DNA from: Methanosarcinales archaeon Methan_01
GTDB taxonomy: Archaea > Halobacteriota > Methanosarcinia > Methanotrichales > Methanotrichaceae
DNA: 32,429 nt
NCBI GenBank assembly: GCA_001602645.1
Contig: LUYE01000034.1
Span: forward strand, 1-32,429
Direction: 5' to 3'
The position numbers and the translations under genes are program-made. Shown in pieces: positions 28,975 to 32,429 of the stretch (positions are counted from its first letter, which is position 1; every line of letters starts with the position of its first letter). Below the pieces are notes generated by a model, which was not told where the DNA came from, made no database searches, and worked only from the letters and a program-made list of their open reading frames with translations.

Positions 28975-29024
28975 GGTCGGCCGAACCTCGATGATGTGGT
29001 GTTAAATTGAACGGAGGCGGGAAG

Positions 29025-29828
29025 GTGGTATCGAGGAAGGATGAGGCGAAGATCAGCGATGGCGGACCCGAAGGGGGGGATCGAATCGAATATAGGCACC
29101 ATCGGCGGAGGCTCATCATCGGGAAGCTGGAGATCGAGGTCCCGGCGGTCGTAGCCGTCCTCAGCGGCGAAGGCGCCCTGGGGGAGGCGTCCTCAGCGGA
29201 GGAGTTCGGGGCTGACCTGGTGGAGGTGAGGCTCGACCTTCTTCCTGGGGACGGTATGAAGATCCTCCGGGAGGTCCGAGAGGTTACGCCCCTACCCATA
29301 ATCGCCACCAACAGATGGGCGGCGGAGGGTGGCGCCTTCCGAGGTGAGGAGGACAAGAGGATCGAGATCCTGGCGGAGGCCTCGGCCTGGGCGGACCTCG
29401 TCGACGTGGAGCTTTTAGCCGAGGGGCGCGACCGCCTCCTGGAGATGGTGGAGAGGCCGACGATAATCTCTTACCACAACTTCCGGGGCATGCCGGGGAT
29501 CGAGGCGACGGGGTCGATCCTCAGAGAGGCCTTCGAGGCCGGGGCCGGGATCTCCAAGCTCGCCCTCACCCCCGCCTCCCTGGAGGATTGTCTCGACCTT
29601 CTGAAGCTCCTCCTCGACGCGCCGGGCCCCACATCCCTCCTGGGGATGGGCGATGTCGGGAGGCATCTGCGGGCCCTGGCACCGATATACGGCTCAGTCC
29701 TCACCTACGGCTACATCGGAACCCCAACCGCCCCTGGCCAGATCCCCGTTAAAGCGCTGAGGGCGGTCCTCGACGTGCTGATGGTCCAAAAGGGTCGAAA
29801 TTTGGCCAGAACTGCCATCCTGCAATGA
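29025..29828 (+). CDS. aroD: type I 3-dehydroquinate dehydratase
   Basis: Dehydrates 3-dehydroquinate to 3-dehydroshikimate, directly following the upstream enzyme's step. Schiff-base lysine K178 (GISKLALTP) and catalytic H151 (SYHNF) are present, with VEVRLDLL and the TYGYIGTPTAPGQIP loop. The GTG at 29025 is chosen because GGAGG lies seven bases before it; a TTG six codons earlier is the alternative. The N-terminal 30 residues (charged, about 6 histidine/arginine) are longer than usual; the barrel starts at LEIEVPAVVAVLS. Confidence 0.9.
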   Translation: MVSRKDEAKISDGGPEGGDRIEYRHHRRRLIIGKLEIEVPAVVAVLSGEGALGEASSAEEFGADLVEVRLDLLPGDGMKILREVREVTPLPIIATNRWAAEGGAFRGEEDKRIEILAEASAWADLVDVELLAEGRDRLLEMVERPTIISYHNFRGMPGIEATGSILREAFEAGAGISKLALTPASLEDCLDLLKLLLDAPGPTSLLGMGDVGRHLRALAPIYGSVLTYGYIGTPTAPGQIPVKALRAVLDVLMVQKGRNLARTAILQ

Positions 29829-30074
29829 GCTTTCTCCCGTTTGAACCTGAAGGCGGGCAGGATGGTCCATCCCGAGCGCTCCGGACCACTTATCCATTTA
29901 TGTAAAATATTTGCTCTAATTCTTCTCTAATTTCTCACCAGATAATGGGATTATATGGACGGAATTTTGTCAAATATTAGTTTTATATCCTATCTTCTAT
30001 CCGGGGTGTAAGGGAAAAAAATGTTTCATTTCTTTGTAAAATGATTACTTTAAATTTGGTCTTTCAACCATTTG

Positions 30075-30096
30075 TAAATCCGATATATCGGATTTA
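30075..30096. promoter_or_regulatory. perfect 22-bp palindrome (candidate operator)
   Basis: The half-site TAAATCCGATA is followed directly by its exact complement TATCGGATTTA. It lies 44 bases upstream of the nearest TATA element and about 100 bases before cdhA. The length and perfection suggest a dimeric regulator site or, in a longer transcript, a stable hairpin. Confidence 0.6.
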
Positions 30097-30139
30097 AATG
30101 TCAATCCATATCGACTTTAGATGACACGATCCCATAAGG

Positions 30140-30147
30140 TTTATATC
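30140..30147 (+). promoter_or_regulatory. TATA element for cdhA
   Basis: TTTATATC, preceded by the purine-rich CCATAAGG. At normal spacing transcription would start near 30,168, leaving a leader of about 30 bases with the ribosome site AGGTGA at 30190-30195. Confidence 0.5.
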
Positions 30148-30199
30148 AAGCAATTAACCCACTATAGCGCGCGGATATTTATCAGAGAGAGGTGAGAAG

Positions 30200-32429
30200 A
30201 TGGATAAGATGGAAGGCAGTTTTTCTGTCGAGGACATGCAGAATGTCCAGATTAACATCGGCGCGGTAGTGAAGGAGGTGGAGGAGTGGGACCAGCCCAT
30301 GGGCCCGTTCCCTTACCCGAGCATCGCCACGCTGAGAGACTGGGACTTCAAGTTGATAAACAGGTATAAGGTCTTCTACTCCCCGATCTGCGATCGGTGC
30401 ACCCTCTGTACCTACGGTCCCTGCGACCTGACCGGGAACAAGAGAGGGGCCTGCGGCCTGGACCAGGCCGCCCAGCAGGGGAGGATCGTCCTCCTCGCGG
30501 TCCTCATGGGCTGCACCGCCCACTGCGCTCACGGCCGACACCTCTACCACTGGTGCCTGGAGAAGTTCGGAGACCTCCCCTTCAAGATGGGCGACGAGAT
30601 CCTGGTGGACGCGCCACTCACCAGGACGATAGCCGGGATCAAGCCCAAGACCCTCAAGGAGTTTGGTCCAGTTCTGAGTTACGTCGAGGAGCAGGTGGCC
30701 CAGCTGCTGGCATGCACCCACACCGGCCAGGAGGGGAGCTACCTCGACTTCGAGTCTAAGGCCCTCCACGCCGGGATGCTCGACTCCCTCGGCAAAGAGG
30801 TCTCGGATCTGATCCAGATCGTCGCCTACGACATGCCTCGGGGCGACGAGGACGCTCCCCTGGTCGAGTGCGGGATGGGGACCCTCGACAAGAACAAGGC
30901 GATCCTTATCACCTACGGCCACAACCTGGCGGGCTCCGCCGAGGCGATGTTCTACGCCGAGGACAACAAGCTCTGGGACAAGGTCGACATCGGCGGCGTC
31001 TGCTGCACTGCCATCGACAACACCAGAATCGGCGAGGGTCTCGGATATCCCGAGGAGATCAACACCAAATACAGAATGGTCGGTACGAAGGCCAAGATCG
31101 CAGGGGCCATGGGCTGGTGGAGGAAGATGGTCCGGGGCGGCGTCATGGACTGCGTCATGGTCGACGAGCAGTGCGTATGTACCGATGCCATCGAAGAGTG
31201 CTCCGCAAGGAAGGTGCCCCTGATCGCCACCAACGAGAAGATCATGCTGGGCCTGCCCGACAGGACGAACGATCCCGTCGACGAGATCGTCGACGACCTC
31301 GTCAACTTCAGGATGCCCGGCGTTGCCATCATCGACCCGATCAAGGCCGGAGAGGTCGGCGTCAGGACCGCCATCGCCGTCAAGCCGAAGCGGGCCGAGG
31401 AGGCGAAGAAGACCTTCCTCACCGAGGAGGAGTTCAAGAAGTACGCTGAGTCCTGTACCTACTGCCACTCCTGCCAGTTCGTCTGTCCCCCCCACATCAA
31501 GATCGGCGACGTCGTCCAGGCGGCGGCGAAGGGCAACCTCGAGCCCTTCAGCTCTACCTACGAGATCTGCGTCGGCTGCCGGAGGTGCGAGCAGGCCTGT
31601 CCCCAGGATATACCTATCCTCAGCCTCTTCGCCTACGCGAACCAGGAGTTCATAAGGGACCACAAGTTCAAGATGAGGGCCGGCAGAGGTCCCGTCAAGG
31701 ACACGGAGATCCGCCGGGTCGGAGCACCTCTGGTCCTCGGGACGATCCCCGGGGTCATCGCCATCATCGGCTGTGCGAACTACCCGAACGGCACAAAGGA
31801 GTGCTACGACATCGCCCGGGAGTTCGTTGACAGAGGCTTCATCGTCACCACCACCGGCTGCATGGCGATGGACATGTCCCTTTATACTGACGAGGATGGC
31901 AAGACGATCTGGGAGCAGTTCCCCGGCGGCTTCGACGGCAGAAACATCTGCAACATAGGTAGCTGCGTCGCCAACGCCCACATCCACGGGGCTGGGATCA
32001 AGGTTGCTACGATCTTCGCCGGGAGGAACGAGCGTGCCAACTACGACGACATCGCCGACTACATCCTCTCCAAGGTGGGCGCCTGCGGCGTCGCCTGGGG
32101 TGCCATGTCTCAGAAGGCGGCCTCCATCGCCACCGGTTTCAACAGGCTTGGGGTACCGGCCGTCGTCCAGCCCCACAGCGTCATGTACAGGAGGGCTTTC
32201 CTGGGCAGGACCGACAAGAAGGAGGACTGGGAGATCATCGACGCGAGGGACGGCTCGAAGGTATACTGCGAGCCAGCGCCCGAGCACCTCCTCTACGTCG
32301 CCGAGTCGGTCGAAGAGGCGATGCTGATGATGGCGAAGCTCTGCTTCAGGCCGAGCGACAACAGCCAGGGCAGGATGATCAAGCTGACCCACTACTGCGA
32401 CATCAGCATGAAGTACTTTGGCTGCCTGC
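30200..32429 (+). CDS. cdhA: CO dehydrogenase/acetyl-CoA synthase alpha subunit (partial, 3' end missing)
   Basis: Nickel-iron CO dehydrogenase subunit of the acetyl-CoA decarbonylase/synthase complex, which in acetate-using methanogens splits acetyl-CoA and oxidises the carbonyl to CO2. The open frame runs 743 codons to the window edge; known archaeal CdhA proteins are about 800 residues, so roughly 60 are missing. N-terminal cysteines C64, C67, C70, C75 and C85 (CDRCTLCTYGPC...GACG) match the B/D-cluster region. Two ferredoxin-type clusters follow: C419-C422-C425-C429 (CTYCHSCQFVCP) and C457-C460-C463-C467. C-cluster ligand regions GGVCCTAIDN, IIGCANYPN, TTGCMAMD and NIGSCVANAHIHG are present. 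The ATG has AGGTGA five bases upstream. cdhB and later subunits probably follow outside. Confidence 0.95.
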   Translation, partial: MDKMEGSFSVEDMQNVQINIGAVVKEVEEWDQPMGPFPYPSIATLRDWDFKLINRYKVFYSPICDRCTLCTYGPCDLTGNKRGACGLDQAAQQGRIVLLAVLMGCTAHCAHGRHLYHWCLEKFGDLPFKMGDEILVDAPLTRTIAGIKPKTLKEFGPVLSYVEEQVAQLLACTHTGQEGSYLDFESKALHAGMLDSLGKEVSDLIQIVAYDMPRGDEDAPLVECGMGTLDKNKAILITYGHNLAGSAEAMFYAEDNKLWDKVDIGGVCCTAIDNTRIGEGLGYPEEINTKYRMVGTKAKIAGAMGWWRKMVRGGVMDCVMVDEQCVCTDAIEECSARKVPLIATNEKIMLGLPDRTNDPVDEIVDDLVNFRMPGVAIIDPIKAGEVGVRTAIAVKPKRAEEAKKTFLTEEEFKKYAESCTYCHSCQFVCPPHIKIGDVVQAAAKGNLEPFSSTYEICVGCRRCEQACPQDIPILSLFAYANQEFIRDHKFKMRAGRGPVKDTEIRRVGAPLVLGTIPGVIAIIGCANYPNGTKECYDIAREFVDRGFIVTTTGCMAMDMSLYTDEDGKTIWEQFPGGFDGRNICNIGSCVANAHIHGAGIKVATIFAGRNERANYDDIADYILSKVGACGVAWGAMSQKAASIATGFNRLGVPAVVQPHSVMYRRAFLGRTDKKEDWEIIDARDGSKVYCEPAPEHLLYVAESVEEAMLMMAKLCFRPSDNSQGRMIKLTHYCDISMKYFGCL

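Follow-up and report, generated by a model that had tools for sequence, protein, structure and literature searches.

The region upstream of cdhA in this archaeon carries an array of three direct repeats at a regular pitch, which is the strongest signal of the region and was overlooked in the preliminary description of this DNA. On the evidence of genome comparison, the array appears better supported as a functional feature than a perfect 22-bp palindrome that lies closer to the gene. The enzyme concerned, CO dehydrogenase/acetyl-CoA synthase (CODH/ACS), cleaves acetate in Methanothrix-type methanogens, which are major producers of methane, and three precise sites held in common by a whole genus represent a ready bait for a putative regulator of one cdhA copy.

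The region upstream of cdhA

The window, by which we mean the whole stretch of 32,429 nucleotides that was analysed, ends within one of the two cdhA genes of the genome (copy A). Between the upstream gene aroD and this cdhA lies an intergenic region of 371 nt (63% AT). That a control region precedes cdhA was borne out, and the 371 nt contain the promoter and regulatory sequences of copy A. We compared it across nine genomes of the genus, including the genome analysed here (G000), Methanosaeta harundinacea 6Ac (G005) and Methanocrinis natronophilus (G006); a plasmid collection was also searched and returned no match. The features discussed below are as follows.

29007-29828, + strand: aroD, type I 3-dehydroquinase (PF01487); upstream gene on the same strand as cdhA
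29897-29920, + strand: repeat R1, TTTATGTAAAATATTTGCTCTAAT, with core TGTAAAAT at 29901-29908; core conserved in 9/9 congeners
29964-29987, + strand: repeat R2, ATTTTGTCAAATATTAGTTTTATA, with core TGTCAAAT at 29968-29975; 67 bp after R1
30031-30054, + strand: repeat R3, TCTTTGTAAAATGATTACTTTAAA, with core TGTAAAAT at 30035-30042; 67 bp after R2
30075-30096, no strand: perfect 22-bp palindrome TAAATCCGATATATCGGATTTA; conserved in part at its outer arms, TAAATC/GATTTA, with ten central bases peculiar to this species
30136-30155, + strand: core promoter AAGGTTTATATCAAGCAATT, comprising AAGG (BRE-like), TATA TTTATATC (30140-30147) and flank; invariant in 8 orthologous promoters
30167-30173, + strand: predicted transcription start zone, placed by archaeal promoter geometry about 25-27 bp from the TATA centre
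30189-30195, + strand: ribosome-binding site GAGGTGA, from sequence; conserved in relatives
30200-32428, + strand: cdhA copy A, CO dehydrogenase/acetyl-CoA synthase alpha subunit, running off the window; its M. harundinacea orthologue matches TIGR00314

Three direct repeats at a 67-bp pitch

The repeats share the consensus TTTTGTAAAATRWTTG, lie in the same orientation with cores at 29901, 29968 and 30035, and are present in all nine genomes of the genus. A repeat search of the sequence itself recovered three 31-nt copies at 67-bp spacing. Across the genus the distance from R1 to R2 is 67 bp in every congener, and that from R2 to R3 is 66 bp in seven congeners and 67 bp here and in M. harundinacea; the cores are thereby held at -299, -232 and -165/-166 from the ATG in nearly every genome, to within 2 bp. 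When eight cdhA promoters were scanned with a PWM, R1 to R3 scored 16-32 bits and the next best site scored at most 9. The triplet TGT is invariant in 24/24 repeat copies of these promoters, and the core columns are markedly more conserved than the DNA between repeats. In two genomes, G001 and G008, an identical 10-mer appears as an evenly spaced triple; even for an 8-mer, such a triple arose in no more than 0.03% of random sequences matched to these two species. A fourth repeat 67 bp after R3 had been suspected by eye and was not supported by the PWM scan. The attributes of an upstream array, namely similar sites, fixed spacing and orientation, and conservation across species, are thus all found here.

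The array is also confined to this position. Exact paired cores occur in 4/50 genomes of the family, all belonging to this genus and all at this locus, and a genome-wide search for the repeat core revealed no excess away from cdhA, only matches at the level of chance. The repeats are absent from the promoters of the second cdhA copy (copy B) and from Methanothrix cdhA promoters. This absence of sites elsewhere leaves no regulon as support for a regulatory reading of the array.

It is unlikely, though worth weighing, that the array plays an architectural or chromatin role, as an A/T-rich block that positions nucleoid proteins or histones and keeps a strong promoter open. Such a role would suit a step of 67 bp, which accommodates approximately one archaeal nucleosome, as well as the AT-rich setting, the regular spacing of about 60-70 bp out of helical phase, and the lack of a known regulator or of other genomic sites. 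However, an invariant TGT within a fixed core in 24/24 copies points to base-specific recognition rather than composition, and the array is absent from copy B and from other genes.

One genome departs from the common arrangement. In G002, a MAG (UBA1), gene order is unchanged as far as aroD, the three repeats are still present along with a dyad at the place of the palindrome, and cdhA copy A is missing; a thioredoxin-like gene follows the array and dyad in its place (G002:C38:4300-5080; L119/L120). Homology stops where the palindrome ends on its right-hand side (window position 30097), and the nearest M. harundinacea relative of the thioredoxin-like gene lies elsewhere with its own upstream region. 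Either the MAG is rearranged, or another gene has captured a still working array, which in that case is perhaps not tied exclusively to cdhA. Should the arrangement be real, array and dyad would be separable from the cdhA core promoter.

The persistence of the array beside aroD in G002 also bears on a reading in which the repeats have no role in cdhA control, being either relics of a tandem triplication of 67 bp or part of the 3' end of the aroD transcript. Equal spacing and some similarity over about 31 nt are likewise what such an origin would leave behind. We nevertheless regard it as very unlikely, given that conservation across nine genomes focuses on the cores and does not extend evenly along 67-bp units, and that a terminator scan found no terminator-like site.

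Core promoter and predicted leader

Downstream of the repeats and the palindrome, the orthologous promoters share an invariant core block followed by a conserved leader and ribosome-binding site. Within it, AAGGTTTATATC is invariant in 8/8 orthologues, 53-64 bp before the ATG, and fits the archaeal BRE/TATA pattern, in which a TATA some 25 bp ahead of the start directly follows a purine-rich BRE and is conserved at orthologous genes. When both cdhA copies are aligned, AAGGTTTATATCAAGCAATT occupies the same columns as the copy-B BRE/TATA, CCGAAAGGGTTTTAT. The stacked TATA elements that had been proposed for this region did not withstand comparison: only the TATA at 30140-30147 is conserved, in 8/8 orthologous promoters, and other candidates, for example TTTTATATC near 29981, are lost even in the sister species. 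Archaeal TATA elements lie 20-30 nt upstream of the transcription start (PMC2838876). For the one TATA that is conserved, the likeliest transcription start is near 30170, with a predicted leader of about 30 nt.

This placement of the start has consequences for the palindrome, which had been considered as a possible hairpin in a long leader. In Methanosarcina thermophila, cdhA is reportedly regulated through a long transcribed 5' leader, and the region there precedes the same gene and is AT-rich and of similar length. Unlike that system, the conserved core promoter here lies about 60 bp before the ATG and the leader is predicted to be short; in silico, neither a long leader holding the element nor a conserved RNA structure was found. 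A start far upstream, with the palindrome tuning elongation from within a long 5' leader as in Methanosarcina cdh, would be compatible with an intergenic length of 371 nt and with the 9-bp hairpin that the single-stranded palindrome can form (z -4.3, DNA parameters). Such a hairpin is, however, not kept in relatives, and the invariant TATA and ribosome-binding site lie downstream of the palindrome, whose centre would be some 85 bp upstream of the predicted start. RNA folding was no better than that of shuffled sequences for the whole region (z -0.76) or the leader (z -0.40), and an Rfam search of the region gave no match. The leader-hairpin idea is thus contradicted on several counts, and we consider it highly improbable.

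A palindrome largely private to one species

The perfect 22-base palindrome was confirmed at 30075-30096, exact in sequence. A perfect palindrome of at least 22 bases appeared in 0.02% (about 2e-4) of 371-nt order-1 Markov sequences of matched composition, and approximately 1.1 are expected per 2.6-Mb genome; one further 22-bp palindrome and one of 20 bp turned up, at other places, in 237 kb of related DNA. Hence TAAATCCGATATATCGGATTTA is locally unusual in the 371-nt region, yet about one is expected per genome. It is single-copy in its own genome even when 3 mismatches are allowed, and it is intact in none of the congeners in the nine-genome set.

What the genus retains is looser. Exact TAAATC/GATTTA arms stand at the same place in 4/9 genomes (G000, G005, G004 and G002), and G008 has the outer arms there with one mismatch. 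Elsewhere in the genus the position is occupied by TAAAGC...CTTTTG (three species) or TCATCC...GATTTA (one), and the inner positions differ in all congeners. Dyad cells were paired in 66% of cases against 18-51% in slid controls, a figure that is overstated in that the structure was taken from one input sequence. The pairing is carried by the outer six pairs, which are kept in most species, the inner five occurring only in this one. The perfect palindrome thus presents itself, by sequence comparison, as a loosely conserved dyad that became sharper in this one lineage; the perfect 22-mer appears largely private to this species, the genus keeping the repeats and one start signal.

The palindrome had been suggested as a possible operator for a dimeric regulator. 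The recurrence of the outer arms in congeners keeps that suggestion alive, and the perfect 22-mer, being species-specific and attached to no credible regulon, does not advance it. Genome-wide searches with the palindrome, its half-site, its spaced arms and an 18-position consensus defined no regulon; the half-site, which had been proposed as a probe for related genes, gave matches without a coherent gene set. The consensus matched 19 sites in its own genome against 2 in controls, and these were scattered through coding and AT-rich DNA with no common function, leading us to reject the excess as a regulon. In the other congeners, matches were at control level.

Outside the cdhA region, the genome contains one other exact arm site, on contig C23, before a Peripla_BP_2 substrate-binding-protein gene adjoining cobN. 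We rejected it as a second operator: its centre is TATA-like and overlaps the TATA of the gene, and a near-duplicate locus lacks the left arm. The contig segment (G000:C23:13900-34300; L101, L077) carries duplicated Peripla_BP_2 clusters with dockerin-like N-termini, adjoining cobN genes; one Peripla_BP_2 promoter there carries a 22-bp near-palindrome, TAAATCATATTTATATGATTTA.

It is doubtful that the palindrome is the chief operator of a dimeric regulator and the repeats secondary. Among nine genomes, four of the six exact arm pairs sit at the cdhA locus, a clustering that speaks for such a role together with the shared position of the arms and the retention of six outer pairs in most species. 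The divergent arms of four species, perfection in one species only, the TATA overlap at the sole other exact genomic site and the control-level consensus matches in congeners speak against it. The preliminary description had held that a start downstream of the palindrome, coupled with lack of conservation, would tell against its importance; in silico, this combination applies to the perfect palindrome and only partly to the outer arms.

A model for regulation from the upstream array

We consider the chances about even that a sequence-specific regulator bound at the upstream array sets the output of the acetate operon. Under this model, a DNA-binding protein would occupy the array of three TTTTGTAAAATRWTTG repeats, which follow one another every 67 bp and lie some 135 to 270 bp ahead of the predicted start, with one oligomer per repeat. 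The dyad TGTAAATC...GATTTA, about 38 bp beyond the repeats, may serve as a weaker accessory site whose arms would have become a perfect palindrome in this species. From its upstream position the bound protein would set the output of the acetate-catabolic operon, with transcription predicted to start near 30170 from the TATA at 30140-30147 and to yield a leader of about 30 nt. Activation is favored over repression because the sites keep a good distance from the BRE/TATA and the predicted start.

Several features sit uneasily with the model, the arrangement in G002 and the lack of sites elsewhere among them. A spacing of 66-67 bp corresponds to 6.3-6.4 helical turns, such that the three sites would point to different sides of the double helix, an odd arrangement if binding were simply cooperative. 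Furthermore, archaeal activators seldom bind more than 130 bp ahead of the start.

In M. harundinacea 6Ac, copy A precedes cdhC and two HdrE/HdrD-like genes, a gene order that fits the locus tags Mhar_0789 (CdhA), Mhar_0792 (HdrE) and Mhar_0793 (HdrD); the Mhar_0789 transcript on acetate is approximately as abundant as those of acs and mtr (PMC3349665). The output of the array would there feed a cdhABC-hdrED cluster. The FilI/FilR1 two-component system, which belongs to the same genus and pathway as the array, regulates methanogenesis in M. harundinacea, acting on the acs and mtr promoters; EMSA showed no binding of FilR1 to the cdhCD and cdhBEA promoters, and neither promoter responded to it in reporter assays (PMC3991700). 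FilR1 is thus not an evident reader of the array, although the probes may differ from the copy-A promoter. Our literature search returned no study of Methanothrix cdh transcription starts, and no cdh regulator for the group.

Two cdhA copies with distinct promoters

Copy B of cdhA lies at G000:C34:181222-183304 (L041). Its coding sequence and that of copy A are mosaics, 80-100% identical to each other: in the 3' part the two copies of this genome are 94-100% identical, as against 89-95% between copy A and its M. harundinacea orthologue over a comparable stretch. In trees, the A and B copies of different species intermingle, and for the first 480 nt the copy A of the window groups with the copy B of the same genome. 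Mosaic identity and mixed trees together look like repeated gene conversion that has left the promoters distinct; upstream of the ATG, the two copies share no array. An apparent deletion of 51 residues in copy B was dismissed as a scaffold gap (NN), and the contigs of both copies break off at an identical base of cdhA.

We tentatively suggest, at somewhat less than even confidence, that in this genus a far-upstream triple-site array of 67-bp pitch, read by a putative regulator, serves just one of the two cdhA copies and is kept despite continuing gene conversion of the coding sequences, leaving the promoters alone to distinguish the copies. Through the array, the reason for which two near-identical cdhA copies persist in the genus can be tested directly.

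The promoter of copy B is of a Methanothrix type, CCGAAAG[T/G]GTTTTAT, which likewise drives a near-identical cdhA and places its BRE/TATA similarly far from the ATG. It differs in lacking R1-R3 and the dyad, in the wording of its BRE/TATA and in its upstream neighbour. Fourteen of 21 non-Methanocrinis loci carry a further Methanothrix motif, ATTAAC[GAT]ATCGTGA, at about -175 from the ATG and about 104 bp before CCGAAAG[T/G]GTTTTAT. This motif, near-identical in L013, L014, L016-L018, L020-L026, L030 and L035, looks like a separate conserved element between cdhA and an apparently divergent neighbour gene.
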